From assembly GCA_009360885.1 (NCBI GenBank), contig SPEL01000004.1, positions 186,001-250,000 on the forward strand: a stretch of DNA of 64,000 bases, read 5' to 3'. The notes under the pieces were generated by a model. The model made no database searches. It saw nothing but the letters and a program-made list of their open reading frames with translations, and was not told where the DNA came from. The DNA comes from Sphingobium sp. (GTDB taxonomy: Bacteria; Pseudomonadota; Alphaproteobacteria; Sphingomonadales; Sphingomonadaceae). Shown piece after piece: positions 36,202 to 64,000 of this stretch (position 1 is the stretch's first letter; every line of letters starts with the position of its first letter). A program made the translations under genes and the position numbers.

Positions 36202-38553
36202 TTATTTCGCCGTGAAAATTTTCACACCAAATACCGGACCGGCAGAGCTGCGTTCATGCGGCTGGAACCGGATACGCACCTTCTGCTTACCCTTGGTCAT
36301 GGCTTCGGGAATTGGCGTTTCCACATCAAAGAATTTACCCGGATTATCGTTGTTCAGCTTCTGCGTCACCAGCAGCTTGCCATCAATCAATATGTCAAAG
36401 CCGCGTGAACGCTCGCTACCCCAATAGCTATGCTGCAGGATGAGCGGACCCGGCTTCACCTTCATATCAAATTCAAAGAAGCCACCGGACCGCGCATCAC
36501 GGCAGTTACGGCCACGATAGGAACCCGGGAAAGATATTTCAGAGGTCAGATCATGGTCACGTTCCGGCTGCATCTCACCCAGATGCATCACGTCGACCGA
36601 CCGCGCCGCTATGTCACGTTGGCGGGCCTGCTCTGCCACAAACGCGGCTTCTTCCTGCTTCCACGCGGCTTCACTGAAACGCTTGAAGTACACAGCGCTG
36701 CGCCGTTCATATTGGCTGTAGAAAGGCACAAAGTTAAGGTCTGCCGGGCGAATAACACCGCGCGTCATATAATGCGGCTTTTCAGCAGGATAAGGATAGA
36801 ATGCCGCTAGCGGGTTTTCACCCACCATCGCAGGCTCCACGCCCGTCCAGTCGACTTCTGCCGGGCCAAGATCGGCTGCCATCACCATCGGCCCGCGCAT
36901 CACGGCCACAACGTCCTTCGCTCCCGCAGCCGATTCAAAACGCAAATCCAGCGGCAGAATGAGGGAAACCACATCGCCCGTTTTCCAGCGACGCGCCAAC
37001 AAGGCATAACCACCTTCAACCGGCGCAGAGAAAGCCTCACCATTGACGGCAATCAACGCCCGGCCACTGGCCCAGCCAGGAATACGCAGTGCCAGTGTGA
37101 AGCGACCTTTGCCCGCATTGGCGATGGTGATCTTCGTTTCCGGCTCAAACGGATAGCGCGTGTCAAGGCGAAGATCGACGCCCTTGGCCGCCCATTGCGC
37201 CTTTGATGCGATGTAGAGATTGACGAACAGCGTGTCATCACCTTGCCAATAGATGGAATCACCGTGCTTAGAGTGGCTTTCCATGCCCGACCCCACGCAG
37301 CACCAGAAACCATCTTCGCCCGGCTGAGAATAACCGCGCGCCGCGCCGCTCATCAGCGGAGTCATATAGGTGAAACCACCATTATTGGGGTTCTGCGCCG
37401 ACATGACATGGTTAAGGTGCGCCCGTTCATAATAATCAAAGAACCGGCCATCCGGGTGCCAGGACCAGAGCTGACGCGTCAGTTTCAGCATATTATAGCT
37501 GTTACAATGTTCGCAGGTCTGTTCGGTCAGATGATCGGCGATATGATCGGGCTCGAAGAAATATTCACGGTCCGCATTACCACCAATCACATAGCTGTGG
37601 TGGTCAGTAACCGTCTGCCAGAAGAACTCTGCAGCCGTTGCGGGCTCTGCCTTGCCGGTCAGTTCATGAATACGCGCCAGACCGATCAGTTTCGGAATCT
37701 GTGTGTTCGCATGGAAATTCGCGAGCTTGTCCTGCTTTTGCGTCAGCGGGTCCAGCACGCGATTATCATAAAGCCGCTCTGCATTTTTCAGCCAGCGCGG
37801 GTTTTTCGTGCGGGCATATAATTCGGCGTAGCTCTCGTTTAGGCCACCATATTCACATGCGAGCATGGATTGCATCTGCTCGTCATTCAGCGCCTCAAAC
37901 ACCTTGGCGAAGTAATCCGCCAGCGTTTCGACGACTTTGATCGCCTTGGCATTGCCCCATGCGGCGTCAATATCGAGCAAGCCTGCAAAGGTCTTATGCA
38001 CGGTGTAAAGCGGTGCCCAGGAACCATTAAGGTCAAACCCGCCAGATTTAATCTCGCCACGCGCTACTTCGCGGAAGATTTCTTCGCCATCGACGATCTT
38101 GCCTTCTTTATTCTTGCGGCCCAGACCACCGACATAGCCGTCACCGCGCTTTTCCTGACATAATGCCAGTTCATCGACGATATAATCGGCCCGACGGCGA
38201 CATTCCGCATCACCCGTCTGCTGCCATGTCAGCGTGAGCGCGGTCATATAATGGCCCAGAGTGTGACCAGCGATAGTATCGCTTTCCCACCCGCCATAAA
38301 TCTCCGCCTTTGGTTCAAGGCCAGCATATTTACGGAAATTATGCAGGAAACGATCAGGGCTGAGCGACAGCAGATATTGCCGGTTTACATCAACAGCCGT
38401 GGCATAATCGGACGGAGCGAGCCGTACAGCCTCCAACGGCAAGGGCTGCGCCTTACGCGGCAGGGCACCCGATGCGGCGCGGCCAATGTGAGGAAACCCA
38501 AGGGTTGCCATCAAGGCCGCACCGGCCATTAATTCTCGACGTGATGCTTTCAT
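36202..38553 (-). CDS. GH127 beta-L-arabinofuranosidase, Tat-exported
   Basis: 783 aa from ATG 38553 (AGAAGAG just upstream). The Tat signal SRRELMAG is followed by a hydrophobic stretch ending IGRAASG. DUF1680/GH127 (alpha/alpha)6 catalytic domain: the zinc/nucleophile set of HypBA1 (E-x-C then CC) is visible as CEHCNSYNM near residue 348 and GFWCCVGSGMESHSKHG near residue 417. A DUF6805-like beta domain ends the protein. Family members release beta-L-arabinofuranose, including from hydroxyproline-linked chains of extensin. A palindromic operator lies 29-40 bases before the start. Confidence 0.9.
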   Translation of the reverse strand: MKASRRELMAGAALMATLGFPHIGRAASGALPRKAQPLPLEAVRLAPSDYATAVDVNRQYLLSLSPDRFLHNFRKYAGLEPKAEIYGGWESDTIAGHTLGHYMTALTLTWQQTGDAECRRRADYIVDELALCQEKRGDGYVGGLGRKNKEGKIVDGEEIFREVARGEIKSGGFDLNGSWAPLYTVHKTFAGLLDIDAAWGNAKAIKVVETLADYFAKVFEALNDEQMQSMLACEYGGLNESYAELYARTKNPRWLKNAERLYDNRVLDPLTQKQDKLANFHANTQIPKLIGLARIHELTGKAEPATAAEFFWQTVTDHHSYVIGGNADREYFFEPDHIADHLTEQTCEHCNSYNMLKLTRQLWSWHPDGRFFDYYERAHLNHVMSAQNPNNGGFTYMTPLMSGAARGYSQPGEDGFWCCVGSGMESHSKHGDSIYWQGDDTLFVNLYIASKAQWAAKGVDLRLDTRYPFEPETKITIANAGKGRFTLALRIPGWASGRALIAVNGEAFSAPVEGGYALLARRWKTGDVVSLILPLDLRFESAAGAKDVVAVMRGPMVMAADLGPAEVDWTGVEPAMVGENPLAAFYPYPAEKPHYMTRGVIRPADLNFVPFYSQYERRSAVYFKRFSEAAWKQEEAAFVAEQARQRDIAARSVDVMHLGEMQPERDHDLTSEISFPGSYRGRNCRDARSGGFFEFDMKVKPGPLILQHSYWGSERSRGFDILIDGKLLVTQKLNNDNPGKFFDVETPIPEAMTKGKQKVRIRFQPHERSSAGPVFGVKIFTAK

Positions 38554-38581
38554 CTCTTCTACCCGCTTCTCTTCAACCAGA

Positions 38582-38593
38582 ATCGTATACGGT
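38582..38593. promoter_or_regulatory. Shared operator, GH127 promoter
   Basis: ATCGTATACGGT, a near-palindrome around GTATAC, 29-40 bases before the GH127 start. Identical to the site at 52605, and the similarity extends into GT(T)GCAGGATGA. The TnGTATAC core is typical of FadR-type GntR operators. Confidence 0.7.
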
Positions 38594-38654
38594 GTTGCAG
38601 GATGAAAGCCCCCTGTCAATTGTCGGAGCAATTAAGCAACCAGATTCACCTCCG

Positions 38655-39566
38655 TCAGCACACTTCCGCAGTGCTGACAGGTGCCTTACCGCCGGGTACA
38701 CGGGCCGGATGCATCCAATAGCCATCGCGGTCGATCCGATGACGATCACCATAGATTTTGCGCAGCAGCACCGCCAAGGTCGGATCATAGGAGGTCAAAT
38801 CAGTATCAGACAATATTCGGCGCCCATTAATTACGCCCAACTTATTGTTATTAAACCAATATTGTGTGCCTTCCGCCCAATATTCCTGAACCGTGGTTTC
38901 CGCATACTCCCCTTTCCACAGGCCCTTTTTCTTTGCCGCAGCATAGGCCTTTTCTACCTCGGCATAAAAGGCCGGGTCGGTCTGCTCTAACGTGCTGAGG
39001 ATTCCATGAGAAAATTCATGGACGAGGATGCTCTCACCAAAATAACGGTCATTTCCAGTACCGAAGAGATTTTCGACGCCTACGCTGGTTAATATGCCGC
39101 CCATACCCCGCGCACGCTTATTCCAATATTGCTGATCGGTCAGGCTGCCGATGCGCTGCTGATAATGCTTTCTCTCGCAAAAGGTCAGGCGTGGATCATC
39201 CGGGGTCGGCTTCTTCCAGTCACGCTGTTCCGGCAGGTCAGTCGTGCCTTCGCTCTGCGCCATAATCGCGATACGTTGGCCATTACGTACCATTGCGGCC
39301 GCAATATCAGGCCGATTTTGCAGCATAGACCGGATCATTGCCGCAGCGATAGTAAGGCCCGCATCCGGTACAGCGGAAGAAGCCACGATGGGAATGCCAT
39401 CAGCAAAGATCACTTTGGTGTAGAAAGGATCAAGATTCAGCTCTGACGGTGGAGCACTGATTTCGGTCGCAGATGCAGCCCCGCACGATAAAAAAGCCAG
39501 CGCAGCAAAGCCCACCGGGCGAAGAGAGGAGCGGATGGCCCCCATAAAATAATCAGGCAAAGACAA
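38655..39566 (-). CDS. Secreted HExxH zinc metallopeptidase-like protein
   Basis: 303 aa. TTG 39566 has GGAGG 5 bases before it and gives a signal peptide (SLRPVGFAALAFLSCGAASA); a Met at 39545 is the alternative. The zinc motif VHEFSHGI is near residue 183 and a second glutamate lies in VQEYWAEGTQYWF near residue 229, an arrangement like gluzincins (ATLF/lethal-factor-like). The family was not recognised further. It sits between the shared operators of GH127 and the divergent pair, consistent with a role in digesting the same substrate. Confidence 0.65.
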   Translation of the reverse strand: MSLPDYFMGAIRSSLRPVGFAALAFLSCGAASATEISAPPSELNLDPFYTKVIFADGIPIVASSAVPDAGLTIAAAMIRSMLQNRPDIAAAMVRNGQRIAIMAQSEGTTDLPEQRDWKKPTPDDPRLTFCERKHYQQRIGSLTDQQYWNKRARGMGGILTSVGVENLFGTGNDRYFGESILVHEFSHGILSTLEQTDPAFYAEVEKAYAAAKKKGLWKGEYAETTVQEYWAEGTQYWFNNNKLGVINGRRILSDTDLTSYDPTLAVLLRKIYGDRHRIDRDGYWMHPARVPGGKAPVSTAEVC

Positions 39567-39623
39567 GAAAACCTCCGATATAACAGCCCCCAGCCCATCG
39601 GCGTCGGGCACCATTGCCGAATA

Positions 39624-39635
39624 ATCGTATACCAT
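39624..39635. promoter_or_regulatory. Shared operator between the divergent HExxH and DUF5695 genes
   Basis: ATCGTATACCAT contains TCGTATACCA, the fullest match to a GntR/FadR-type tNGTaTACNa site. It is 58 bases before the minus-strand HExxH gene start and about 200 before the plus-strand DUF5695 start, so it could control both. Confidence 0.65.
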
Positions 39636-39833
39636 ATTTACAAGACATGCACCTTATGTCATTTGACGGAGTAATTATTTCTATATTACATTCTGATGAG
39701 TGTTAAAAAACGGATTACCCACATTATGCTGCCGTTTACCCGTCGCCATTCCAATCCCGCTTCATGCAGGCCCAGCCCGCAACGCGGCCCATGATTGATA
39801 ATTACCCCTTACCGAGTTGAGGATTTCCGACCT

Positions 39834-42584
39834 ATGAAAAAGCATTTCCGTTCCCTCCCGCTATGCGCGCTGATACTCGCTGGCATGGCCGTGCCGATGA
39901 CCAGCCTGTCCGCGCAGGAAAAGCCCGCAGAGGCGGCGAAAACCTACCCGCCGATTGCGCGCACACCCTATCAGACACCGTCTTTCGCGCTTGATCTGCG
40001 CACGGACACACAAACATTGGCGCGCCTGTCCCCCGTGGGCGAACCAGCCTTTGATTTCGTACCGGGCGGGCGCGAGGCCGAACGGGCCGGGGACGGATAT
40101 AATCATATCGGTGACATCAACATTCGCCTGAAAACCGCCGGTGGCGACTGGCAGGATTTCTCCTCCGCTCATCAGCGTAAGACCATCACCCTGTTGGCGG
40201 GTCGCGGCAATGTGCTGGCCGCTGCGGATATTACGGCCTCCATGGGCGCAGGCATTCCGTTGAAGGTCGAACGCGAATGGGTGAACGACAATGGCGTGCT
40301 GGCCCTGCGGTTCCGCATCAGCAACCCCAGCGGACAGCCAGTGGAAATTGGCGGGCTGGGCCTGCCGATGGTGTTTGATAATATCATCCTCGACCGCGAT
40401 CTGGATACGGCCCATGCACAGGCCAGCTTCGTTGACCCTTATATTGGCCGCGACGCAGGCTATTTGCAGGTAACGCGCCTCAACGGCCAGGGTCCGGCAT
40501 TGCTGGTCCTTCCGGAAAAGGGCACCCCGCTGGAGGCTTATCGTCCGCTCGATCAGGCTGGCCGCACCAAGGGCAGTCCGGTTTTTACCGAGAAAAGCCA
40601 GCGCAGTCAGGTATCAGAAGGCTTTTATGACTGGACCGTGGCCAGCAAAGGCTTTGCCGAAAAAGAATGGGCCAACGCCGGAAAGCAGTGGAATGATCCC
40701 ACCAGCATCACCCTGACGCCCGGTGAAACACGCGTCTTTGGCCTACGCTTTGTTACATCGCCCAGCATTCGCGCCATAGAAGACACTCTCGTCGCCCAAA
40801 AACGCCCAGTGGCCGTTGGCATTCCCGGCTATGTCGTGCCGACGGATCAGACCGCCAGCCTATTCCTGAAATCGCCCAGCAAGGTGAAACAGATCACCTC
40901 CTTCCCCGAAGGCGCGTTGACGGCTAAGCCCGTGCAGTCCGGCAAAGGCTGGTCACGCTATTCGGTGCAGGCCAATGGCTGGGGCCGGGCACGCCTGACC
41001 ATCAGCTATGCCGATGGCGAGCAACAAACCGTCAGCTATTACATCACCAAGCCATTGGATCAGGTGATGACTGATCTGGGCAATTTCACCACCACCAAGC
41101 AATGGTATGAAGACCCTAAGGACCCCTTTGGCCGTTCGCCCGGTATCCTGACCTATGACCGCGAACAAAATAAGATACTGACGCAGGATGGCCGTGTCTG
41201 GGTCGCGGGGATGAGCGATGAAGGTGGCGCGGGTAGCTGGCTATCGGCCATCGTCAAGCAGCTCGATAATCCTGATGCGCAGGAAATCGCCAAGCTGGAA
41301 CGGATGATGAATGAAACCATCCTTGGCAATTTGCAGGTAAAGGATGGCCCACAAGCAGGCGCGGTTAAGAAGAGCCTGTTCTATTACGAGCCGAAGGAAT
41401 TCCCCAACTATTACGACCCTAAGATTGACTGGTCGCAATGGACGGCATGGAATAAGAAAAACTCAGACGATCTGGGCCGCTCCTATAATTACCCCCATGT
41501 CGCTATCGCGCATTGGACCATGTATCGCCTTGCCCGCAACACCAATGGGCTGGTGAAGCAGCATGACTGGCGCTTCTATCTGGAATGGGCTTATCGCACC
41601 TCCGTCGCGATGATGCGGGATGCGCCTTATTATGCGCAATTCGGCCAGATGGAAGGCGATATTTTCCTTGATATCCTCAAGGATCTGAAGCGTGAAAATA
41701 TGACCGCCGAAGCCACCAATATGGAAAAGCTGATGAAAGGACGCGCCGACCATTGGCGGACGCTGAAATTCCCATTCGGCAGCGAAATGGCATGGGATTC
41801 CACCGGCCAGCCTGAAGTCTATGCGTGGATGCGCTATTTCGGCTATCAGCCGCAGGCCGATATAACCAAAGAAGTTATATTGGGCTATGACCCGACCGTG
41901 CCGAGCTGGGGTTATAATGGCAATGCCCGCCGGTATTGGGACTTCCTTTATGGGGGTAAAATTTCGCGAATTGAGCGGCAGATTCACCATTATGGCTCCG
42001 CGCTCAATGCGGTTCCGTTATTTGATGCCTTCCGCCAGAACCCCAATGATTTACATCTGTTGCGTGTTGCTTATGGCGGCATGATGGGCGGCATCACCAA
42101 TATCGATCAGGAAGGCTTTTCCTCCTCCGGCTTCCATAGCTGGCCAGATGTTATGAACTGGGATGTAATCAATGGTGACTATGGCATGGGCTTTTATGGC
42201 CACGCCATCGCCGCAGCAACCTATATGGTGAATGATCCTAAATTCGGCTGGCTAGGCTTTGGCGGCGATCTAACACAAAAGGGCAAGACCATCAGCATCA
42301 CCCCGCGCGATGGTGCACGCCGGCGTCTGTTCATTGCCCCGGCGGGTCTGTGGATCACGCTGGAGTCTGGTCGCATCGCCTCCGCCGATTATGATAGCGG
42401 CAAGGGCACCGTTCGACTGACGCTGGACCCGGCAACAGCAATCACGCCCAAGGCGCGGCTGCTGTATGAAACGACAACCACCAATGGGCGGCCTTACAGC
42501 CTCTCAACCGGGACCGTGGAACGCGAGGGCTATAACATCCCATTGGGCACCACCCCCACCGTCATCACCTTTACCCCGCGCTGA
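39834..42584 (+). CDS. DUF5695 secreted protein, probable glycoside hydrolase
   Basis: 916 aa from ATG 39834 (GAGG about 10 bases upstream); signal peptide cleaved near SLSAQ. A large beta-rich N-terminal half (residues 30-330) precedes a helical, Trp/Tyr-rich part (WYEDPKDPFGRSPGI, YNYPHVAIAHWTMYRLAR, EVYAWMRYFGYQPQAD) that looks like an (alpha/alpha)6 barrel, then a beta-sandwich tail. It matches the DUF5695 family seen in Bacteroidetes and sphingomonad polysaccharide loci; activity is unknown. 51 bases upstream of the Svx-like gene, same transcript. Confidence 0.75.
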   Translation: MKKHFRSLPLCALILAGMAVPMTSLSAQEKPAEAAKTYPPIARTPYQTPSFALDLRTDTQTLARLSPVGEPAFDFVPGGREAERAGDGYNHIGDINIRLKTAGGDWQDFSSAHQRKTITLLAGRGNVLAAADITASMGAGIPLKVEREWVNDNGVLALRFRISNPSGQPVEIGGLGLPMVFDNIILDRDLDTAHAQASFVDPYIGRDAGYLQVTRLNGQGPALLVLPEKGTPLEAYRPLDQAGRTKGSPVFTEKSQRSQVSEGFYDWTVASKGFAEKEWANAGKQWNDPTSITLTPGETRVFGLRFVTSPSIRAIEDTLVAQKRPVAVGIPGYVVPTDQTASLFLKSPSKVKQITSFPEGALTAKPVQSGKGWSRYSVQANGWGRARLTISYADGEQQTVSYYITKPLDQVMTDLGNFTTTKQWYEDPKDPFGRSPGILTYDREQNKILTQDGRVWVAGMSDEGGAGSWLSAIVKQLDNPDAQEIAKLERMMNETILGNLQVKDGPQAGAVKKSLFYYEPKEFPNYYDPKIDWSQWTAWNKKNSDDLGRSYNYPHVAIAHWTMYRLARNTNGLVKQHDWRFYLEWAYRTSVAMMRDAPYYAQFGQMEGDIFLDILKDLKRENMTAEATNMEKLMKGRADHWRTLKFPFGSEMAWDSTGQPEVYAWMRYFGYQPQADITKEVILGYDPTVPSWGYNGNARRYWDFLYGGKISRIERQIHHYGSALNAVPLFDAFRQNPNDLHLLRVAYGGMMGGITNIDQEGFSSSGFHSWPDVMNWDVINGDYGMGFYGHAIAAATYMVNDPKFGWLGFGGDLTQKGKTISITPRDGARRRLFIAPAGLWITLESGRIASADYDSGKGTVRLTLDPATAITPKARLLYETTTTNGRPYSLSTGTVEREGYNIPLGTTPTVITFTPR

Positions 42585-42634
42585 TTGGCGCGGGCGAAAA
42601 CACTACCCTTATCAAGAAGAAGAGGCAGGTCATA

Positions 42635-44533
42635 ATGCGTAAGAAGATAATGAGCCGATTTTCCAAAGGCCCGTTTTCAATAGCCATTGCGACCTGCCTC
42701 CTTCATGCCCCAGTCAGCACTGCGGCCGAAGCACAGGCTGCATCCCCCGCTGTTGCCTCCGACAAAATTGACCAGCACTGCGTCGCGGGCGCATGGCGCG
42801 TTCCCGCGCCCGACCCCGATGACACCGCCAACGCCCCGATGCCCGTGCGCATGGAAAGCCAGCATTTCGCGCTGCGATGGCTCGACGCACCGGTAGATCG
42901 CAAGGACGCGCAGGCCGCACTCGATCATCTCGAATATGTGTGGGATTATTTTAACGACATCATCGGCTTCCCCACGCCTTATTGCGATACCCCCACCAAA
43001 TATAAGGCCAATATCTTCATTGGTAAGGATTATGGCCTGTCCGCCGGGATGGATGGCAAAGATCATATGGGCATATGGGTGGGGCCGGGCGCGCTGAAGG
43101 ATCGCTTCGGGCTGGCCCATGAATTCACCCATGCCCAACAAGGGGCAACAGGCCGCTATCGCGACACGCCTTATGCAGGCTGGATGTGGGAAAGCATTGC
43201 CAACTTCATGGCGCTGCAATTACCGGAATTCCGTAACAGCACCCATTGTTCGGTGTTTCAGGTCAATTATCCGCATCTCTATTATGGCACCACGCGGATG
43301 CGCTATTGCAACATCCAGTTGTGGGAATATCTCAAAAACCGCTTCGGCTACTCCATCATAACCGATCTGATGCGCAACGCCCCGCCGCGCCACAGCGCAG
43401 GGGAAGCCACGGCCGATCCTTTTATCGTCCTGATGCAGAGCCGCGGATGGTCGATTGCACAGTTTAATGACATCATGGCGGACTGGGCGATGCATAATGC
43501 GAACTGGGATTATAAAGACCCGGATGGCACCGACCATGGCGCGGTATTTCGCGCTAATTATGGCGGTTATGAGCCGTATCGTAACGACGCCCCCTTGCGC
43601 ACCACGATGCTCGACCCGATGGATATGAAGAAGCGCCGCTTTTCCGTGCCAGAGGCATGGGCACCGCAGCGCTGGGGATATAATCTTGTTCGCCTGCACG
43701 CTGACACAGGCGCAAAAAGCATTGGCGTCACGTTTCGCGGCGTTGTGCAGGACAACCCTGCCACACAGACATTGCCGGGTCTGGCCGACGAACCGACGGC
43801 TATCCCTCAGCCCGATTCCGATTGGCGCTGGGGCGTGGTATCCGTGGGGGCCGATGGCAGCAGCCGCTATTCCGCCCTGCAAACTGGTGCGCGCGGCGAT
43901 GTGACCGTGGATGTTCGCCCAGATGATAGCGCCCATTATCTGATGGTGATGGGCACACCATCAAAAATGCACCAGATACGCTGGGACCAGCCTTATTATT
44001 CCATCTATCGTTATCCGTGGATGGTGGAATTGCGCAATGCACTGCCGGAAGGGTTTCAACCCAATGCCCCGGCCCCGATTGCGGGCGCGCATCGCCACCC
44101 CAATGGTGGCGGCTGGGTAGGCCCGCAAGCACAGGTTGCACCTTCGGCCTTTGTCGGCCCTTATGCCCGCGTGGAGGGTGGCACGGTCTCAGATCAGGCC
44201 AGAATTGAGGACCATGCGGTTGTTTTAAGTGGCGAAGTACGCGATCAGGCCGTGGTCGGTGCGCTGTCTGTCATTCGCGGCAATACGATCGTCAAGGATC
44301 GGGCGCGGGTAATGACCAGCTTTCTGGGCATTGGGGAATATGAGAAGGGCATCGTCCTATCGGGCGATACGCAGTTGATCGGTGACGCAGAAGAACGCGG
44401 CGCCTCTCTCTCCGGTGGGGTATATTATGGCTTTGTGGACGCCGAAACTGCGGCGGACCCGAAACGCGGTGCCAATCTCTCCGCCCCGGTGCCAGAGGTT
44501 ACAGCCCTCGCGCGCTATAAATGGAAACCATGA
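42635..44533 (+). CDS. Svx/AvrXca-like gluzincin with left-handed beta-helix tail
   Basis: 632 aa, signal peptide at the N-terminus (residues 1-35). DUF6055-type metallopeptidase domain: zinc motif LAHEFTHAQQG near residue 162 and third-ligand motif WESIANFMALQ near residue 186. Relatives are Svx of Pectobacterium and AvrXca of Xanthomonas, secreted plant-interaction proteases for which plant extensins have been proposed as targets. Residues about 488-565 form hexapeptide repeats (GPQAQVAPSAFVGPYARVEG-like; the SDQARIEDHAVVLSG and DQAVVGALSVIRGN steps), i.e. a left-handed beta-helix, perhaps for carbohydrate binding. Confidence 0.8.
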   Translation: MRKKIMSRFSKGPFSIAIATCLLHAPVSTAAEAQAASPAVASDKIDQHCVAGAWRVPAPDPDDTANAPMPVRMESQHFALRWLDAPVDRKDAQAALDHLEYVWDYFNDIIGFPTPYCDTPTKYKANIFIGKDYGLSAGMDGKDHMGIWVGPGALKDRFGLAHEFTHAQQGATGRYRDTPYAGWMWESIANFMALQLPEFRNSTHCSVFQVNYPHLYYGTTRMRYCNIQLWEYLKNRFGYSIITDLMRNAPPRHSAGEATADPFIVLMQSRGWSIAQFNDIMADWAMHNANWDYKDPDGTDHGAVFRANYGGYEPYRNDAPLRTTMLDPMDMKKRRFSVPEAWAPQRWGYNLVRLHADTGAKSIGVTFRGVVQDNPATQTLPGLADEPTAIPQPDSDWRWGVVSVGADGSSRYSALQTGARGDVTVDVRPDDSAHYLMVMGTPSKMHQIRWDQPYYSIYRYPWMVELRNALPEGFQPNAPAPIAGAHRHPNGGGWVGPQAQVAPSAFVGPYARVEGGTVSDQARIEDHAVVLSGEVRDQAVVGALSVIRGNTIVKDRARVMTSFLGIGEYEKGIVLSGDTQLIGDAEERGASLSGGVYYGFVDAETAADPKRGANLSAPVPEVTALARYKWKP

Positions 44534-44706: not shown

Positions 44707-44721
44707 TATACCGTAGATATG

Positions 44722-52476: not shown

Positions 52477-52604
52477 TTCGTCTCCTGCCTTTATTTGCAT
52501 TGATTGCGCCATTTTGTGACCGAGCGACGTGATAGGCCATGCCAGCGATAAAGCCCATAACCCATCGCATATATTTCACAATTACTCGGTCTAATAGCGT
52601 TTAT

Positions 52605-55867: not shown

Positions 55868-56034
55868 TGCATGCAATGAGCAAGAAGTTGACAGGACACA
55901 TTGCAATCCGGCTGTCGCCAGCACTCCTTATGGATCTGACGATCCATCTATGCACGCCCATGATTACGACGAACCGTAGATTCGGGGCCACGAGTACCTT
56001 TCCTACTTTACTGCCATTGCCAAATTCACCATAT

Positions 56035-56049
56035 AATATACGGTATATT
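56035..56049. promoter_or_regulatory. Palindrome related to the shared operator, S9 peptidase promoter
   Basis: AATATAC-G-GTATATT, a perfect 7-bp palindrome 46 bases before the S9 start. It shares TATACGGT with the other sites but has a one-base-longer centre, so it may be a relative rather than a copy. Confidence 0.45.
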
Positions 56050-56094
56050 TTTCAGGCTGTGACCTGTCACCTCTCAACGGAATGATGACACCCC

Positions 56095-58521
56095 ATGCAC
56101 CTTCTGCATCTGCCAACCCAGCCATCAATGATCGGACAGGCGCATATCCGCTCACACAGGCCCGCAGTTTCCACCAGATATTGGTCACTACGGAACGCCT
56201 TCCTGAGCTGCGCGGCATTTGCCGCAGTCCTGTTACCGCACCCCATATTCGCTGCCCCGGCAGGCCAGAGCGTAGAAACGGCTTCCTCAGCCGAAATGGC
56301 CCTGCGTTATGCTCAGGCAGACCGATTTGCGGGTAGATCTCTTGCCGAAATGGTCGACAATACAACCATCGCCCCCAAATTTGTCGGACAAGGTGAGAAA
56401 GCGGGCCTGTTGTACCAGACCGGCAATTGGAAGCGCGCCAGCTATGTTTTCCTTGATCTGGCGACCATGCAAAAGCGCGAAATTGCCACCAGCGCCAGCC
56501 TGATGGCGGCAACGGGCCGCCCCAATGAGACAGAGCCCGACATAAGCAATGTCTATTATGATCCGACAAGCAGCACCATCTATTTTCAGGCCGCAGGCAA
56601 AAGCTGGACAATGGCGGCTGGCGAAGCTGCTAAGGCGATACCATCCACAGCGCCAGCCTCCATGGACCTTCCTTCCCCCGATGGAAAAACCCGTATCGTT
56701 GCGCGCAATTTCAACCTTTATGCGGTAGACGTCGCCAGTGGCCGCGAAGTCGCCCTGACCACCGATGGCACACGGGAACAGCCTTATGGCCGCCCCATCC
56801 CGCATCTACCTGATATGCTTCGCGCAAACAGTGAAGAGCCGGACATGCCGGTTTCAGCCATCTGGTCCCCCGATAGCCGTTATTTGCTAACATGGCGGCT
56901 GGATGTACGCGGCGTCCGCAAGCTGAGCATGACTCAGCAAAACCCACCGGGGGAATTCTATCCCCGCAGCTTTTCCTATATCTATCCGTTGGCCGGGGCC
57001 AGGGTTCTACCGCAATCCCAGCGCCTGACGATTGATGTTGCCGCCGCAATGAAGAGCGGCCAAGCAAAAATTATCCCACTTGCGATTCCCAGCGAATCCA
57101 TCCTCTATCCTTCCCCGCCAGATATGGGCTGGCAGGATGGCAAGGTGCGCGCCCAGTGGACTGAACGCGGCTATAAGCAGATTGCCGTTTATCATGCCGA
57201 CCCTGCAACGGGGAAATCCACCATCGTCGCGCATGAAAGCGTGAAGCCGCTGGTAACGGTTACGTCCAGCATGATTATGCCTGCACCGAAACTGGGCGGG
57301 GAACTCTCCATTTCAGAGCGTACTGGCTGGGCGCAGCTATACCTCGTTCACCCGAATGACCCCGATGGGGGAACGCCCCTCACCAAAGGGGAATGGGAAG
57401 TTCTCTCTGTAGACCACATAGCGGATGATAGGAAATCTTTGCTCGTCACCGGCGTGGGGCGCGAGGCAAAACGCAATCCTTATTGGCGGTCGCTCTACCG
57501 CGTGGCCACCAATGGCAGCAGCATCACCGAACTGACCCCCGAACCGCTCGACCATGATGTCAGCATTTCCGATGATGGCCGCTGGATTGTCGATGAAATG
57601 TCCAGCCCAACCTCCCCCACCCGCTCGGTTCTGCGTGATGGTGCGACGGGCAAAATCATAATGGAATTGGCCAAGGCCGATATGTCGCGCCTGATGGCCG
57701 CGGGATATACTCCCCCAGAACCCTTTAAGGGCGTAGCTGCGGATGGGAAAACGCCAATTTATGGCATGCTTTATCGCCCGGCCAATTTTGACCCGAAGAA
57801 AAATTACCCCATCATCGACAATGTGTATACCGGCCCCACAACCACCGATGTCCCCGCAACGTGGAACGAAACCATCCGCGTTTCGGGCAATAGCGTCGCA
57901 CAGCTAGGCGCGATTGTTGTTATGATCGACGGCACCGGCACATCACGCAGAGGACAGAAATTCCGTCTGCCTGCCTATGAAAATCTGGGCGAGGTCGGAC
58001 TGGATGACCATATCAGCCTCATTCGTCAGATGGCGCAAAAATATCCTTATATGGATACACAGCGCGTCGGTGTTTTTGGCGGATCAGCCGGCGGATATGA
58101 CACTGCGCGCTTTCTGTTGCGTCGCCCTGATTTCTTCAATGTGGGCGTCAGTTCGGCAGGGAACCATGAACTGAGGCTCGATAAAACATGGTGGCCAGAA
58201 GTGTCCATGGGCGATGCCGATGATGCTATATGGGAAGCTAATTCCAACATCTCCGTCGCAGGCAATCTGCAAGGCAAGCTGTTGCTGGTCCATGGAGATA
58301 TTGATGATAATGTGCCCATCACGGCCAGCTATCGCCTCGCTAAGGCGTTAATTGATGCTGGACGAGATGTGGACATGATCGTCATGCCCAATACCGGCCA
58401 TGGCATATATCAGCCCTTCTATGTGCGGAAAATGCGGGATTATTTCACCCGGCATCTTCTGGGCGAAACACCGCCGCCGCTACCGCCCGTTAAAGGCAAA
58501 GCGCAGGCCGCCACCCAATAA
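56095..58521 (+). CDS. S9-family prolyl/dipeptidyl peptidase (DPP4-like)
   Basis: 808 aa. A hydrophobic signal-like stretch (FLSCAAFAAVLLPHPIFA) ends near residue 53; the true start may be an internal Met such as 56128. Eight-bladed DPPIV_N propeller (repeats such as SPDGKTRIVARNFNLYAVD and SISDDGRWIVDEM), then an alpha/beta-hydrolase domain: Ser in GGSAGGYDTA near 663, Asp in HGDIDDNV near 735, His in NTGHGIY near 767. S9 enzymes favour cutting after proline, fitting a Pro/Hyp-rich peptide substrate. Followed by the alpha-galactosidase after 109 bases. Confidence 0.9.
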   Translation: MHLLHLPTQPSMIGQAHIRSHRPAVSTRYWSLRNAFLSCAAFAAVLLPHPIFAAPAGQSVETASSAEMALRYAQADRFAGRSLAEMVDNTTIAPKFVGQGEKAGLLYQTGNWKRASYVFLDLATMQKREIATSASLMAATGRPNETEPDISNVYYDPTSSTIYFQAAGKSWTMAAGEAAKAIPSTAPASMDLPSPDGKTRIVARNFNLYAVDVASGREVALTTDGTREQPYGRPIPHLPDMLRANSEEPDMPVSAIWSPDSRYLLTWRLDVRGVRKLSMTQQNPPGEFYPRSFSYIYPLAGARVLPQSQRLTIDVAAAMKSGQAKIIPLAIPSESILYPSPPDMGWQDGKVRAQWTERGYKQIAVYHADPATGKSTIVAHESVKPLVTVTSSMIMPAPKLGGELSISERTGWAQLYLVHPNDPDGGTPLTKGEWEVLSVDHIADDRKSLLVTGVGREAKRNPYWRSLYRVATNGSSITELTPEPLDHDVSISDDGRWIVDEMSSPTSPTRSVLRDGATGKIIMELAKADMSRLMAAGYTPPEPFKGVAADGKTPIYGMLYRPANFDPKKNYPIIDNVYTGPTTTDVPATWNETIRVSGNSVAQLGAIVVMIDGTGTSRRGQKFRLPAYENLGEVGLDDHISLIRQMAQKYPYMDTQRVGVFGGSAGGYDTARFLLRRPDFFNVGVSSAGNHELRLDKTWWPEVSMGDADDAIWEANSNISVAGNLQGKLLLVHGDIDDNVPITASYRLAKALIDAGRDVDMIVMPNTGHGIYQPFYVRKMRDYFTRHLLGETPPPLPPVKGKAQAATQ

Positions 58522-58630
58522 CCCCCATTCATAAGACCAGCCCGAAAGCTGAGTTTATGAACCGGACCTTTTCTTTACGGGGCCAGGGGCAACAACCCCG
58601 GCCTTATGACTATCTATAGGAATCTATCTG

Positions 58631-60160
58631 ATGACCAAAAAGCGTCTGCCTTATTTACTGGCCGCCTCTCTGATGTTTACCGGCGGTATGACGACCACTA
58701 TCGCCCATGCCAAAACCCCCTATGATGGTGTCTGGCTGTTTGACGATACCCCCGCCCGGCCCGGCGTGACGATGGCGGAAATCAGCAGCAAGGGGGATAA
58801 GATTTCCGGTCGTATCACCACCTTATGGTATGGTCCGGTTGAAATGCAGAATGCCCGTATCGAAAACGGCAAGCTGCTGTTTGAAGCCCGGAATATCAAC
58901 GACAAGGCCAATCCGACACGCCAGTGGAGCCTGTCTCTCGCCGGGGGCAAGGTCCATCTCAACGGCCAGATATGGTTCAACGAAGTGCTGGTTTCGGGCG
59001 AACGCGGTTCAGCCAAAGATGCTGCGCAGCGCGCCTTCAAATTCTCGCCCATGCCGCAAACCGGCGCGCCGATTGAACTGAAAATCGCAGCAACCCCGCC
59101 CATGGGCTGGAGTAGCTGGAATAAGTTCGCCGAACATATCGATGATAAGACCATCCGCGCCATGGCCGATGCGATGGTAGAAAAGGGTCTGAAGGACGCG
59201 GGTTATCTCTACATCAATATTGATGATGGCTGGCAGGGGGAGCGCGACGCCAATGGCGTGTTGCAGCCTAATGAGAAGTTCCCCGACATGAAGGCCCTGA
59301 CCGCCTATGTGCATTCCAAGGGCCTGAAAATCGGCATTTATAGCTCGCAAGGCCCGAAAACCTGCGCCGGTTATCTGGGCAGCTATGGCCATGTCGAACA
59401 AGACGCCAAAACCTTTGCCGAATGGGGTTTCGACTATCTGAAATATGACCTTTGCTCTGGCGAATGGTTCTACGACACCGCCGAAACGGTGAAGGCCAGC
59501 TATTATGAAATGGGCAAGGCGCTGCAGGCCACTGGCCGCGAATTCATCTATTCGCTGTGCCAATATGGCCGCTTTGATGTCGGCTCATGGGGCCGCGCTG
59601 TCGGTGGCCAGTTGTGGCGCACAACGGGCGACATCACCGATGATTATGAAACCATGGCGAAAATCGGTTTCGATAAAAATGGCAACCCCGAATATACCGG
59701 CCCCCATGGCTTTAATGACCCGGATATGCTGGAAGTCGGCAATGGCGGCATGACCGCTGATGAATATCGCACGCATATGAGCCTGTGGGCCATGTCCGCA
59801 GCCCCATTAATGATGGGACATGACCTGCGTGAAACATCGGCAGAAACGCTGGATATCCTCACCAACAAGGCGGTTATCGCGGTCGATCAGGACGCACTGG
59901 GCATTCAGGGCAAGGCCGTTCGTAAGGCTGGTGACGTGGAAATCTGGCGCAAGCCTTTGGCCGATGGCCGCGTTGCCGTCGCCCTGTTCAACCGTGGGAC
60001 AAAGCCGGCATCTACGCAACTCAGTGCATCTGACACCGGCCTTGCCTCTGTCACAAAGGCAGAGAATCTGTGGAAGGGCAAAATCGCCGGTAAAAACGGG
60101 CTGGGCGAATATAGCCTGCCTGCCCATGGCGTTGAAATGCTGATCCTGTCTGGTCGCTGA
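58631..60160 (+). CDS. GH27 alpha-galactosidase with N-terminal extension
   Basis: 509 aa, signal peptide ends TIAHAK. Residues about 30-150 form an extra beta-rich domain (WLFDDTPARPGVTMAEISSKGDKISGRI split in part) that I cannot assign firmly. The GH27 barrel starts PPMGWSSWNKFA; LYINIDDGWQG, nucleophile YLKYDLC near residue 272, acid/base in LWRTTGDITDDY near 335, then a beta C-terminal domain. Extensin serines carry single alpha-galactose, a plausible substrate; raffinose or galactomannan are alternatives. Probably co-transcribed with the S9 gene. Confidence 0.92.
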   Translation: MTKKRLPYLLAASLMFTGGMTTTIAHAKTPYDGVWLFDDTPARPGVTMAEISSKGDKISGRITTLWYGPVEMQNARIENGKLLFEARNINDKANPTRQWSLSLAGGKVHLNGQIWFNEVLVSGERGSAKDAAQRAFKFSPMPQTGAPIELKIAATPPMGWSSWNKFAEHIDDKTIRAMADAMVEKGLKDAGYLYINIDDGWQGERDANGVLQPNEKFPDMKALTAYVHSKGLKIGIYSSQGPKTCAGYLGSYGHVEQDAKTFAEWGFDYLKYDLCSGEWFYDTAETVKASYYEMGKALQATGREFIYSLCQYGRFDVGSWGRAVGGQLWRTTGDITDDYETMAKIGFDKNGNPEYTGPHGFNDPDMLEVGNGGMTADEYRTHMSLWAMSAAPLMMGHDLRETSAETLDILTNKAVIAVDQDALGIQGKAVRKAGDVEIWRKPLADGRVAVALFNRGTKPASTQLSASDTGLASVTKAENLWKGKIAGKNGLGEYSLPAHGVEMLILSGR

Positions 60161-60198
60161 TTTCTCCTATCGGCCAGCCGGTTATCCCGGATTCCATG

Positions 60199-60226
60199 CG
60201 GCGCGCTTTCCCATCGAAGGCGCGCC
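60199..60226 (+). terminator. Terminator of the S9/alpha-galactosidase transcript
   Basis: GCGGCGCGC pairs with GCGCGCCG around a 12-base loop, about 40 bases past the stop. Weak T-run, so confidence is moderate. Confidence 0.55.
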
Positions 60227-60288
60227 GTTCTGGTTTCAAGCCAGATCGCAGAACAGAGACAGTTGCATAATAAGGTCATAATTCGTAG

Positions 60289-60300
60289 ATAGTATACCAA
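60289..60300. promoter_or_regulatory. Shared operator, semialdehyde dehydrogenase promoter
   Basis: ATAGTATACCAA, including TAGTATACCA, a full match to the tNGTaTACNa form, 69-80 bases before the dehydrogenase start. Confidence 0.6.
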
Positions 60301-60368
60301 TTCACCTTAGCGGGCAGACCCAACCCATAGGGTAAAACGACCATCACGAAACAATTACGGAGCATATA

Positions 60369-61937
60369 ATGGACGGCGTCATCCTGATAGGACAACAGGA
60401 AACCCGCGAAGGGAATGGTTTTTTTCAGGCAACGGACCCGTCCAGCGGCACATTGATCGAAGCACGCTTCCCAGAAGCAACGGCAGATCATGTGGCTGCG
60501 GCCTGCGCCCTCGCCAATGTTGCATTTGATGAATATGCGATGCTGGCCCCCGAAAAAACGGCACAGTTCCTTGAAACCATCGCCGAAGAGATTTTAGCCA
60601 TCGGCGATGATCTGATCGTCAACGCGATGCAGGAATCTGGCTTGCCCCGCGCTCGTCTGGAAGGGGAACGGGGCCGCACTGTAGGCCAGCTTCGCCTGTT
60701 CGCCGCGCTAGTGCGCAAGGGCGAATGGCTGGACGCCCGGTTGGACCCCGCTTTGCCTGATCGTCAGCCCATGCCCCGCGTTGAATTGCGGTCGCGCAAA
60801 ATTGCCGTGGGGCCAGTTGCTGTCTTTGGTGCCTCCAACTTCCCGCTCGCATTCTCGGTCGCTGGCGGCGACACCGTGGCCGCGCTGGCCGCTGGTTGCC
60901 CGGTTGTGTTCAAGGGCCACCCTGCCCACCCCGCAACCGGCGAACTGGTCGCCAAGGCCATTGGCCGGGCCGTTGCGAAATGCGGCTTGCCCGCAGGTGT
61001 TTTCTCTTATCTGCCCGGCACGACCCATAAACTGGGCGGCGCACTGGCGGCAGACCCCAATATCAAGGCCGTGGGCTTTACCGGATCCCGCGCTGGCGGC
61101 CTTGCGCTGATGAGAATCGCGGCCTCTCGCGCAGAACCCATCCCCGTTTATGCGGAAATGAGCGCGGTGAACCCTGTTCTGCTCCTCCCCGCAAAGCTGG
61201 CGGCGGACGCAGAGGCACTGGGCAAGGCGTTCATCGCATCGCTGACAATGGGCGCGGGGCAATTCTGCACCAATCCCGGCCTGTTACTGGCAATTGACGG
61301 ACCCGATACCGACCGTTTCACCGCTTCTGCGGCTGAAGCCCTTGCGGGTAATGCCGCGCTGACCATGCTGACGCCGGGCATTCACGCCGCCTATTGCAAG
61401 GGTGTTGACGCCCTCTCGGCCCATGCCTCCGTTCGCTTGGTGGCGCGCGGGCTGGTGGGCGAAGGCCCGCATCAGGCGCAGGCTGCTTTGTTTGAAACCG
61501 ATGCCGCCAGCTTCCTTGCCGACGAAGCATTAGGCGCGGAAATCTTCGGATCCACCTCATTGCTGGTTCGTTGCCGGGATGCTGAGGAGTTGAAGCGCAT
61601 ATTGTCAAAGCTGGAGGGGCAATTAACTGCAACGCTGCATATGTCGGCGGCGGATGAACAGCTTGCTGCTGCGCTGATGCCGCTGCTGGTACGCAAAGTT
61701 GGCCGTATACTCGCCAATGGCTGGCCTACCGGCGTCGAAGTATCCCATGCAATGGTGCATGGTGGCCCCTTCCCCGCAACATCCGATGGCCGCAGCACCT
61801 CGGTTGGCACCATGGCGATTGAACGCTTTCTGCGCCCAGTCTGCTTTCAGGACATAGCCGATGCGTTACTGCCCGAAGCATTGAAAAGCGCCAATCCGCT
61901 GTCCCTGCCGCTGCGCGTGGATGGCGCACTGAAATAA
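60369..61937 (+). CDS. Alpha-ketoglutarate semialdehyde dehydrogenase
   Basis: 522 aa NAD(P)+-dependent aldehyde dehydrogenase. The long form with [37 protein letters not shown] and [11 protein letters not shown] matches 2,5-dioxopentanoate (KGSA) dehydrogenases of the type-II/III group rather than the short AraE form. Catalytic Cys is in [10 protein letters not shown] near residue 300 and the general base Glu in [10 protein letters not shown] near 263. It makes 2-oxoglutarate, the last step shared by hydroxyproline, L-arabinose and glucarate breakdown. It has its own shared operator, so it belongs to the island regulon. Confidence 0.88.
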
Positions 61938-62007
61938 GGACCGAATCGAGGGGCGAGCTTAAAATGCCTGCTCCTCTTCTCTTGTAATCCCTCTCGCTTG
62001 GGCAATG

Positions 62008-62044
62008 AAAAACCCCCGCTCCATCACCGGAACGGGGGTTTTCC
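62008..62044. terminator. Bidirectional terminator between KGSA dehydrogenase and M24 peptidase genes
   Basis: AAAACCCCCG pairs with CGGGGGTTTT; A- and T-runs lie on both flanks. Serves both convergent genes. Confidence 0.9.
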
Positions 62045-62064
62045 TTTATTCGGTTGCCGAGAAA

Positions 62065-63267
62065 TCAGGCCTCAAAGGGCTGTTCTATCGACGGCGAAGG
62101 ACGGGTGAACCACTGCGCCCCGGTTTCGGTGACATAAAAATGGTCCTCCAGCCGAACGCCGAACTTCCCCGGTACGACGATCATCGGCTCGTTGGAAAAG
62201 CACATGCCCAGCTCCAGCGGGGTAGTGTCGCCACGCACCAGAAAAGGTGCTTCATGAATCGACAGACCAATGCCATGGCCGGTCCGATGAGGAAGACCGG
62301 GCAGGCGATAATCCGGGCCAAGTCCTCCTGCCTCCAGCACATCACGCGCCGCCTGATCGATCGCGCCGCAGGGAACGCCGGGCTTCACCGCTTCAAAGGC
62401 CGCCTTTTGCGCGGCTTTTTCGAGGTTCCAGATGAAGCGCTGTTCCTCATTCGCCTCGCCATAGACATAACTGCGCGTAATGTCAGACGTATAGCCCTGC
62501 ACGAAACAGCCCGTGTCGATCAACACCATATCGCCTTCCTTCAGCACCCCGACACCAGGGAGACCATGCGGATAAGCGGTCGCTTCACCAAACAGCACGA
62601 TGCAGAAGCTGTTCCCCGATGCGCCCATGGCGCGGTGCGCAGCCTCGATGAAGCGATAGACCTCCGTCGTGGTGATGCCGGGGCGCAATATGCGGGCGGT
62701 GCGGCGTTGTACCTCCAGCGTCATATTCTTGGCTTGCTGCATCAATGCCAGTTCCGCCGGGGATTTGGTACGGCGGCAGCCATCAATGATGGGCGTGCCT
62801 TCCAATATCTTTACATCTGGCGCAGCGCGGCGCACACGGTCCATGAAGTGGAAACTCATATCCGGCGCAATTGCCAGCGTGCGCACGCCAAAGCCCTTAA
62901 GCGCATCTGCGATCAGGGCTTCGGGGCTTTCATCTTCTTCCCACAGGCGGATGTCGCCGGATACCTTCTGGTCCGCTTCGAAACTGCCCAGTTCAAAACG
63001 GGGGCAGATGAAGATAGCCTCCCCCTTTACCGGGATAATCATCGCCACCATGCGTTCCGTCGCGCCCCATGGCACGCCAGAGAAATAATTGAGGCTGGCC
63101 CCCGCGCCCACCAGCAAGGCATCGGCCCCCTGCGCCTCTGTCAGCCGCCGCACTTTTTCGAGGCGCGCCGCGTATTCGGCCTGAGTAATAGCTGAGGCAA
63201 GATCTGCCCAAGGGGTGATTTCTGCTAATTCAGTAGCGTAGTCGGAGCCACCGATCATTTGTGACAT
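62065..63267 (-). CDS. M24 Xaa-Pro-type aminopeptidase/dipeptidase
   Basis: 400 aa from ATG 63267 (AAGGAAATATC upstream); the frame also opens at 63288. Creatinase/prolidase N-domain (residues 1-150), then the pita-bread fold with metal ligands in LIDTGCFVQGYTSDITRS (two Asp), HRTGHGIGLSIHE (His), SNEPMIV and GVRLEDHF (two Glu). Cytosolic, releases amino acids next to proline; could finish Pro/Hyp dipeptides. 35 bases downstream of the DadA-like gene, same transcript. Confidence 0.88.
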   Translation of the reverse strand: MSQMIGGSDYATELAEITPWADLASAITQAEYAARLEKVRRLTEAQGADALLVGAGASLNYFSGVPWGATERMVAMIIPVKGEAIFICPRFELGSFEADQKVSGDIRLWEEDESPEALIADALKGFGVRTLAIAPDMSFHFMDRVRRAAPDVKILEGTPIIDGCRRTKSPAELALMQQAKNMTLEVQRRTARILRPGITTTEVYRFIEAAHRAMGASGNSFCIVLFGEATAYPHGLPGVGVLKEGDMVLIDTGCFVQGYTSDITRSYVYGEANEEQRFIWNLEKAAQKAAFEAVKPGVPCGAIDQAARDVLEAGGLGPDYRLPGLPHRTGHGIGLSIHEAPFLVRGDTTPLELGMCFSNEPMIVVPGKFGVRLEDHFYVTETGAQWFTRPSPSIEQPFEA

Positions 63268-63302
63268 GATATTTCCTTCATGCTTCATATATACAGAACG
63301 GC

Positions 63303-64000
63303 TTATCCAAAGCGTTCCAGCGACAGGTGCGGAGAGGGTGCGTCGCCAGAGAGCAGCGCCGCCAGACTCTCGCCCGTCGTCGCAGCCAGCGTTAGACCCA
63401 GATGCTGATGACCGAAAGCATAATATAAATTATCTGCTTTATCGCTGCGCCCAATGGCAGGCAGATAATCCGGCAATGTCGGACGCGACCCGAACCATGG
63501 CGCAGCATCACCGGCAATCGGCAGGCCCACGGCACTGGCATGCTGGTGCAACCGTTCCCATTTGCTTTTATCCGCAGGGGCATGGGGGGCGCTGAACTCA
63601 ACAAAGCTGGCCGCACGCAGTCCGCTGGTGAAGCGGGTTGCAATCATCGATCGCTCCTCAAACACGACCGGAGGCATAGCGGCAGGCCACGCCTCTTCGC
63701 TGACCGGCGACTGGATGTGATAGCCCCGCTCATCGATGATCGGCACATTGTGGCCCAGCGGGCGCAATAGTTCCCCCGACCGCGCGCCAGCGGTGACGAT
63801 AATCTGGGCCGGACGCAGCATCCGCCCATCCTCCAGATCGGCAACCGCCTTCCCGCCTTCTGTTCTGATAGCAACGACCCGCCCTTGCTGAAGTATCCCC
63901 CCCAGTTTCAACAGAGAGTTACGCAATCCATCAGCCAGCAAACCCGTATCCGCGATCTGACCGCTGCCTTCACAATAAATAGCGCCCGCAAGCGGCTTAT
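63303..64000 (-). CDS. D-amino-acid dehydrogenase-like flavoprotein, truncated by window edge
   Basis: The C-terminal part of a DadA/D-hydroxyproline-dehydrogenase-like FAD oxidoreductase. The frame stays open to base 64000 (KPLAGAIYCEGSGQIADTGL), so the N-terminal FAD-binding domain lies outside the window. Visible motifs are RPAQIIVTAGARSGELL, PWFGSRPTLPDYLPAIGR and NLYYAFGHQHLGLTLAATTGE. Such enzymes oxidise D-amino acids to imines; in hydroxyproline catabolism the D-hydroxyproline dehydrogenase gives delta1-pyrroline-4-hydroxy-2-carboxylate. The specific substrate is inferred from context. Confidence 0.8.
   Translation of the reverse strand, partial: KPLAGAIYCEGSGQIADTGLLADGLRNSLLKLGGILQQGRVVAIRTEGGKAVADLEDGRMLRPAQIIVTAGARSGELLRPLGHNVPIIDERGYHIQSPVSEEAWPAAMPPVVFEERSMIATRFTSGLRAASFVEFSAPHAPADKSKWERLHQHASAVGLPIAGDAAPWFGSRPTLPDYLPAIGRSDKADNLYYAFGHQHLGLTLAATTGESLAALLSGDAPSPHLSLERFG

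Follow-up and report, generated by a model that had tools for sequence, protein, structure and literature searches.

Bacterial gene clusters for trans-4-hydroxyproline (Hyp), as in rhizobia and Pseudomonas, comprise an epimerase, an FAD-dependent oxidase, a deaminase of the DHDPS type, an aldehyde dehydrogenase and a GntR regulator. For Hyp-arabinosides, the closest described system is that of Xanthomonas euvesicatoria, in which XeHypAA (GH43) acts on Ara4-Hyp (Ara, arabinose; PMC6085000), XeHypBA2 (GH121) takes beta-Ara2 off Ara3-Hyp (PMC6085000, PMC10850190), and XeHypBA1, like Bll4HypBA1 a member of GH146, acts on Araf-beta-Hyp (Araf, arabinofuranose; PMC10850190). A neighbouring prolyl-oligopeptidase gene is mentioned for this system; X. 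euvesicatoria cannot use L-arabinose, and its deletion mutants stay pathogenic (PMC6085000). The peptidase Svx has been described from Pectobacterium and Dickeya (PMC13164431, PMC10815107, PMC9266454); Svx of P. atrosepticum (Pba) cleaves extensins, for which it needs a second domain that recognises their arabinans (PMC13164431), and Svx-like proteins of Sphingomonas, Novosphingobium and Sphingobium have already been listed (PMC9266454). Here, we describe a locus of Sphingobium sp. that begins at position 36202 of the window (the whole stretch analysed, 64,000 nucleotides, G000:C3:186001-250000; assembly of 2.93 Mb in 8 contigs, 79.6% complete) and continues for 7.5 kb beyond the window end, to C3:257466, with Hyp genes, a permease, an S9 peptidase and a GntR regulator. 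Judged from its sequence, the locus probably serves the use of Hyp-rich plant cell-wall glycoproteins, most likely of the extensin type.

The Hyp genes are of the same types as in the rhizobial and Pseudomonas clusters, but are coupled here to exported glycosidases, peptidases and TonB-dependent receptors (TBDRs). GH43 and GH146 are common to this locus and that of X. euvesicatoria, where the prolyl-oligopeptidase gene may be likened to the peptidases found here; in contrast to that system, no GH121 was found, and the set is joined with Hyp catabolism, TBDRs, a DUF5695 protein and more peptidases. The Svx candidate belongs, over cut-off, to the same family as the Pectobacterium/Dickeya proteins and shares the HExxH...E motif, whereas it follows DUF5695 in an apparently nutritional locus and has a HExxH-to-E spacing of 19 residues instead of 22 as in Pba (PMC9266454).

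The locus was first outlined in a reading of the window made from its letters alone (the sequence-only reading), which proposed extensin-like glycoproteins as substrate; DUF5695 was missing from its gene list, yet is the gene with the conserved neighbourhood. When named genomes were scanned with an alignment of DUF5695, at least 452 relatives were obtained, and the best 80 of these (61-77% identical; the nearest, from Novosphingobium, at 77%) were used, all counts thus referring to close DUF5695 relatives. The 80 loci are from Sphingomonas, Novosphingobium, Sphingobium, Caulobacter, Duganella and others; ten strain names contain Leaf or Root, and ten loci are shorter than 22 kb. Presence was scored as a tblastn match of at least 40% identity and at least 40% coverage within 10 kb of DUF5695. 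On this basis, GH146 was found in 60 loci, DUF885 in 59, the Ldh_2-family reductase in 51, GH43 in 33, the S9 peptidases S9a and S9b in 28 and 12, M24 in 27, DHDPS in 26, GntR in 23, the D-amino-acid dehydrogenase-like protein (DAO) in 21, the APC permease in 18, the epimerase in 16, Svx in 15, the metallopeptidase M326 and TBDR1 in seven each, GH27 in six, the aldehyde dehydrogenase (ALDH) in two and TBDR2 in one (25 if any match is counted); PutA was found in none of the 80 at 40% identity and was rejected as a locus member. As controls, eleven proteins encoded in the left part of the window, with a commonness unmatched to that of the locus proteins, were present in no locus (ten proteins) or in a single one (one protein), and one of them (14944-17781) reached 7/80 when any match at E 1e-8 was counted. 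With controls in 0-1 and locus proteins in up to 60 of the 80 loci, the locus genes appear to occur together more than by chance. The conserved core is DUF5695, GH146, DUF885, Ldh_2 and the Hyp genes, and Svx, GH27, M326 and GH43 vary; by this linkage, a conserved locus for the utilization of Hyp-rich glycoproteins is well supported.

Among 296 genomes of the order (own genome included), nine carry DUF5695. Stretches of 20 or 40 kb fetched around this gene in the eight other carriers contain GH146 and GntR (eight each), DHDPS, APC permease and DUF885 (seven each), Ldh_2 (five) and the epimerase (four), further GH27 and GH43 in one genome each (GH43 at 34% identity), and neither Svx nor M326. 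The epimerase was found over cut-off in 31 of the 296 genomes (45 when relatives below the cut-off are counted), i.e. in all nine DUF5695 genomes and in 22 of the 287 others (Fisher p 4.7e-10, uncorrected for kinship; six of the nine bear one genus label), and lies within 30 kb on the DUF5695 contig in five of the nine, by coordinates. Among the named genomes with the 80 loci, 16 have the epimerase in the flank; the 46 that have neither epimerase, DHDPS nor DAO in the flanks at the tblastn thresholds were searched whole, the remaining 18 being left out. This search gave an epimerase over cut-off in 38 genomes, relatives at 212-218 bits in seven Duganella genomes, and none in one 2.4-Mb metagenome-assembled genome. 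In 29 of the 38, the gene is on the DUF5695 contig, and in 21 at a distance of 11-22 kb, outside the 10-kb flanks.

Protein families were scanned for 20 proteins at 29.7-64 kb of the window and for ten proteins of the stretch that continues past its end (L005). Signal peptides and export were judged by eye, and motifs, with their generally accepted functional meanings, were located by pattern search, which confirmed the three acidic motifs of GH43 and the GH27, DUF885 and S9 motifs in Table 1. All genes named in the sequence-only reading were recovered in place, i.e. GH127/146, two HExxH peptidases including Svx, two TBDRs, GH43, DUF885, Ldh_2, S9, GH27, ALDH, M24 and DAO.

Table 1. Features of the locus, given in window positions unless a stretch (L005) or contig (C3) is named.
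Feature	Position	Strand	Basis
GH146-like beta-L-arabinofuranosidase	36202..38631	-	Pfam: catalytic and middle domains of GH127 type, DUF6805 at the C terminus; by eye, a Tat-like signal around residue 27
M326, HExxH metallopeptidase, exported (by eye)	38655..39635	-	Without Pfam family; predicted fold PPEP/Zmp1-like
DUF5695 protein, exported (by eye)	39795..42584	+	PF18951, 1278 bits; predicted beta-sandwich and alpha-helical barrel, PL27-like
Svx/AvrXca-family gluzincin metallopeptidase (DUF6055)	42635..44533	+	NF040510, 832 bits (cut-off 625)
TonB-dependent receptor 1 (TBDR1), Xanthomonas/Caulobacter type	44773..47541	-	TIGR01782, 541 bits (cut-off 310)
GH43 protein, alpha-L-arabinofuranosidase candidate, lipoprotein-like signal (by eye)	48022..49656	-	PF04616; best PDB 3qee/3qed
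DUF885 peptidase-like protein, exported (by eye)	49625..51448	-	PF05960, 526 bits; HExxPGH
Ldh_2-family reductase	51445..52512	-	PDB 1wtj, 240.7 bits; runner-up 128.5
TonB-dependent receptor 2 (TBDR2)	52874..55807	+	Pfam
S9 DPP-IV-type peptidase (S9a), exported (by eye)	56095..58521	+	Pfam; GxSxGG
GH27 alpha-galactosidase-like protein, exported (by eye)	58631..60160	+	Pfam; KYD and DPDML
NADP-type aldehyde dehydrogenase (ALDH)	60369..61937	+	PDB 3v4c, 503 bits; alpha-ketoglutaric semialdehyde dehydrogenase candidate by position
M24 peptidase, Xaa-Pro dipeptidase-like; by eye, without signal	62065..63288	-	Pfam; NF040821, 148.5 bits (under cut-off 630)
FAD D-amino-acid dehydrogenase-like (DAO), D-Hyp oxidation candidate	63303..64000, start past window end (to C3:250622)	-	Pfam; NCBIfam below cut-offs
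DHDPS-family deaminase candidate	L005 2610-3527; match C3:250634-251488	+	Family match and position
4-Hyp epimerase (Pro_racemase family)	L005 3476-4540; match C3:251560-252531	+	NF010578, 544 bits (cut-off 376)
APC permease	L005 4787-6199	+	Family scan
Second S9 peptidase (S9b)	L005 6322-8649	+	Family scan
GntR regulator (GntR-FCD)	L005 8759-9466	+	Family scan

In the sequence-only reading, the lack of a Hyp epimerase and deaminase throughout the genome had been named as a finding that would refute the proposal, and the sequence beyond position 64000 as the place to look for them. Past the completed DAO gene, the gene order in L005 is DHDPS family, 4-Hyp epimerase, APC permease, second S9 peptidase, GntR-FCD regulator and PutA; candidates for both enzymes are therefore present, and the proposal came through this check as far as sequence goes. 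For the Pro_racemase-family protein, the 4-Hyp epimerase model was the best among six families, and the protein contains two cysteine motifs (CGHGT and PCGTG), which we take to hold the catalytic cysteines of the epimerase. The DHDPS-family protein has LYNNPTAYR where the genome's other copy has LYNVPGRT; Ala replaces an Arg that is presumably a functional residue of DapA, and its loss would be expected for a deaminase rather than for DapA, with another Arg two residues on. No curated deaminase model was matched, the best match being dapA (TIGR00674, 180.8 bits) under its cut-off of 206. A role as DapA is unlikely, the Arg-bearing copy being located on contig C4, though dapA is still the protein's best, below-cut-off NCBIfam match. 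The Ldh_2-family protein resembles most closely delta1-piperideine/pyrroline-2-carboxylate reductase, and on its PDB matches a lactate/malate dehydrogenase or an arabinose enzyme was rejected in favour of an imino-acid reductase. DAO and ALDH are candidates for their steps by position; for ALDH, the curated alpha-ketoglutaric semialdehyde dehydrogenase equivalog (NF042993) gave 69 bits at a cut-off of 770. Of the inner enzymes of hydroxyproline/arabinose catabolism proposed from the sequence alone, the locus contains those for Hyp and imino acids, at least as candidates, and none for arabinose was identified in it.

For the first gene of the locus, labelled GH127 in the sequence-only reading, GH127 proper was rejected on PDB scores that favour GH146 (BtGH146 5opj, 475 bits; 8k7x, 182; 4qjy, 102; HypBA1 3wkw, 52). 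The match to 5opj spans the catalytic and C-terminal parts, and a Zn-Cys site is present (EHCNSYNML, ExC; WCCVG, CC) with ligands as in PMC10850190. The relabelling helps the Hyp proposal, because the two Araf-beta-Hyp enzymes XeHypBA1 and Bll4HypBA1 are both GH146. A second GH146 gene (64% identical) was observed elsewhere in the genome (L052, G000:C7:264001-284000; 320-2701), 7 kb from a second copy of M326. Towards its C terminus, the GH43 protein weakly matches the end of the beta-L-arabinobiosidase HypBA2 (NF041578, 28.8 bits), perhaps through a common sugar-binding domain; a GH121 elsewhere in the 79.6% complete assembly was rejected, the sole match (26 bits) being to this GH43 tail.

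GH146, GH43 and a TBDR could also be read as a set for trimming pectic arabinan that merely adjoins an ordinary Hyp/proline cluster of independent function. The nearest solved GH43 structures (3qee/3qed) presumably represent an arabinan-specific arabinofuranosidase, and weak NCBIfam matches to endo-arabinanases were obtained. BtGH146 (BT0349), too, is an arabinan enzyme (PMC10850190). However, GH146 occurs together with a Hyp gene or Ldh_2 in 56 of the 80 loci, the epimerase is present in the majority of the DUF5695 carriers searched, and there is no second GH43 among the 20 and ten scanned proteins; we consider two adjoining functions highly unlikely.

An AlphaFold2 model of the DUF5695 protein (pLDDT 80.9, pTM 0.82) shows beta-rich regions, a middle region of alpha-helices and a beta region at the C terminus. 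The best Foldseek match, far ahead of rank 3 (E 3.4e-6), was the PL27 enzyme BACCELL_00875 (5no8/5nok; E 3.8e-25; TM-score 0.81 by target and 0.60 by query length), a rhamnose-glucuronate lyase that takes rhamnose off glucuronate on gum arabic (PMC8377490). Because of this predicted fold, arabinogalactan-proteins (AGPs), which are also Hyp-rich, appear as the main rival to extensin: DUF5695 would be a PL27-like lyase that uncaps arabinogalactan side chains, GH43, GH146 and GH27 would trim Ara and galactose (Gal), and the peptidases and Hyp genes would use the core protein. One GH146 is active on rice AGP (PMC10850190), in line with this view. The DUF5695 protein is, however, only 13% identical to 5no8, and a profile (alignment A2: the window protein and 32 of the 80 loci, picked for spread; L087 and L108 left out for a stop inside the matched stretch) searched against the PDB up to E 10 found neither PL27 nor any other relevant solved relative. 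In a published AGP system, GH88/GH105 clears the unsaturated product (PMC8406133), whereas this family was detected neither in the own genome (79.6% complete) nor in five of the eight other DUF5695 genomes of the order, being present in three; this gap makes the same chemistry less probable for DUF5695. No other galactanase or beta-galactosidase family was found among the 20 and ten scanned proteins, GH43_24 being indistinguishable from GH43 by Pfam, and we regard AGPs as an unlikely main substrate.

For an extensin-type substrate, DUF5695 is a candidate for the absent Hyp-arabinoside step, because no GH121 was found in the own genome; that it takes over the part played by GH121 in Xanthomonas is a guess. 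The family is named in a single paper of the open-access literature searched, which by its title concerns fungal velvet regulators. In genome G210, another DUF5695 protein of strong divergence (26% identity; L039, G210:C17:53563-58215) is encoded some 6 kb away from the first one, a hint of a subfamily that acts on a different substrate. In seven Duganella loci (L111, L114, L122, L125, L127, L135, L137), DUF5695 is without any partner within 10 kb, and neighbouring open reading frames (ORFs) picked in the partner-less loci L101, L110 and L111 were mostly without family, some being probably spurious.

Both secreted HExxH peptidases of the sequence-only reading are present; the Svx-like one is confirmed by its cut-off, and the second is relabelled as similar to Pro-Pro endopeptidases (PPEPs) by its predicted fold. 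The gluzincin motif of Svx (HEFTH, 19 residues, E) is located at residue 162 of the ORF and fits HEXXHX(8,28)E (PMC9266454). By analogy with the Pba enzyme, this Svx candidate may cleave extensin. In the order, Svx was found over cut-off in one of the 296 genomes, i.e. the own genome, with weak partial matches in four others; in all 15 Svx-bearing loci of the 80, its match begins 75-243 bp after that of DUF5695 and on the same strand. M326 has no Pfam or NCBIfam match, and is predicted to fold like PPEPs (AlphaFold2 pLDDT 77.5): Foldseek ranks 1-20 were all PPEP-1, -2 or -3 (E 1.7e-5 to 3.0e-3; next fold, E 0.03), with TM-scores of 0.48-0.66 by target length (rank 1, 0.59) and of 0.31-0.43 when the query length is used. 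HExxH and a later Tyr-6-Glu motif are present in all 23 M326 loci examined, and Glu and Tyr are 37 residues apart in the ten loci computed, compared to 35 in PPEP-1 and 36 in PPEP-3 (from mutated residues in structure titles); PPEP-1 presumably uses Tyr178 and Glu185. In contrast to the PPEPs, M326 is longer and alphaproteobacterial, and it is 14-18% identical to them.

In the order, 37 of the 296 genomes contain the M326 family, and 36 of these have no DUF5695; the second M326 copy of the own genome (L052, 9690-10679) lies in another context, next to paired PmbA/TldD genes and with a TBDR and an ABC protein of the SbmA/BacA type in the vicinity; M326 as an extensin-specific enzyme in general is thereby ruled out, and it may serve peptide processing more widely. 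This distribution would also suit a general locus for scavenging proline-rich or collagen peptides with incidental glycosidases, as DUF885, S9, M24, the PPEP-like predicted fold and the imino-acid enzymes fit any Pro/Hyp-rich peptide. Such a locus is hardly credible, however, when GH146 and DUF885 are equally conserved around DUF5695 (60 versus 59 loci); to our knowledge, collagen carries no arabinose.

For the use of an extensin-type glycoprotein, we infer the following pathway, with its step order and locations. Exported Svx, PPEP-like M326, DUF885 and DUF5695 would open the glycoprotein, Svx being known from a pathogen to read extensin arabinans, and the two TonB receptors would import glycopeptides. 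GH43 would take off alpha-L-Araf, GH146 beta-L-Araf from Hyp, and GH27 alpha-Gal from Ser, and the S9 and M24 peptidases would cleave Xaa-Pro/Hyp bonds. Hyp would be converted to alpha-ketoglutarate via the 4-Hyp epimerase, the FAD D-Hyp oxidase (DAO), the DHDPS-family deaminase and the aldehyde dehydrogenase, and the Ldh_2 reductase would form L-proline from pyrroline-2-carboxylate, with GntR as likely regulator. Outside this pathway, the window encodes a DUF3419 protein at 29732-30988 (presumably BtaA, for betaine-lipid synthesis), and the GC content shows no more than a slight dip (0.554 versus 0.568).

The extensin-type substrate proposed from the sequence alone is supported by the Hyp genes past the window, by the comparative linkage and by the published cleavage of extensin by Svx (PMC13164431). 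Several observations weigh against it. The nearest predicted fold of DUF5695 is that of lyases acting on the arabinogalactan-protein gum arabic; Svx and GH27, the markers that aim most directly at extensin, are both outside the conserved core; and Svx, GH27, M326, TBDR1, ALDH and TBDR2 are unconserved at 40% identity. GH43 relatives also act on arabinan. Further, 20 of the 80 loci have no GH146 within 10 kb, 18 of them being of full length and seven from Duganella (all seven Duganella loci), and the scan of named genomes covers close DUF5695 relatives only. GH121 was not found in the 79.6% complete assembly, neither DAO nor ALDH attains a curated cut-off, and no enzymes of L-arabinose catabolism were identified within the locus (an IlvD/EDD count of three is no decisive evidence for this catabolism). 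GH146 relatives, too, are active on arabinan (PMC10850190). Extensin is hence named as the likely rather than the established main substrate, because the DUF5695 fold also suits AGPs and because Svx, GH27 and M326 lie outside the core.

A wider proposal is put forward tentatively: DUF5695 might be an undescribed family of carbohydrate-active enzymes for the glycans of Hyp-rich glycoproteins, paired with Svx and replacing GH121, and M326 a Gram-negative Pro-Pro/Hyp-Hyp endopeptidase, which together with Hyp catabolism could form a widespread extensin-to-ketoglutarate system of sphingomonads and Caulobacter. No dedicated bacterial route from an intact Hyp-rich glycoprotein to central metabolism was found in the open-access literature searched, nor any entry for Hyp epimerase with extensin, Pro-Pro endopeptidase with extensin, or Hyp in phyllosphere sphingomonads; as judged by titles and the beginnings of abstracts, none of the papers found for sphingomonads together with extensin and utilization loci describes such a locus.

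The tough components of the plant cell wall include extensins and other glycoproteins rich in Hyp. The locus gives DUF5695 a testable role, would supply enzymes for Hyp-arabinosides and proline-rich peptides, and would offer a nutritional reason why svx and similar genes, known from pathogens, occur in plant-associated bacteria.

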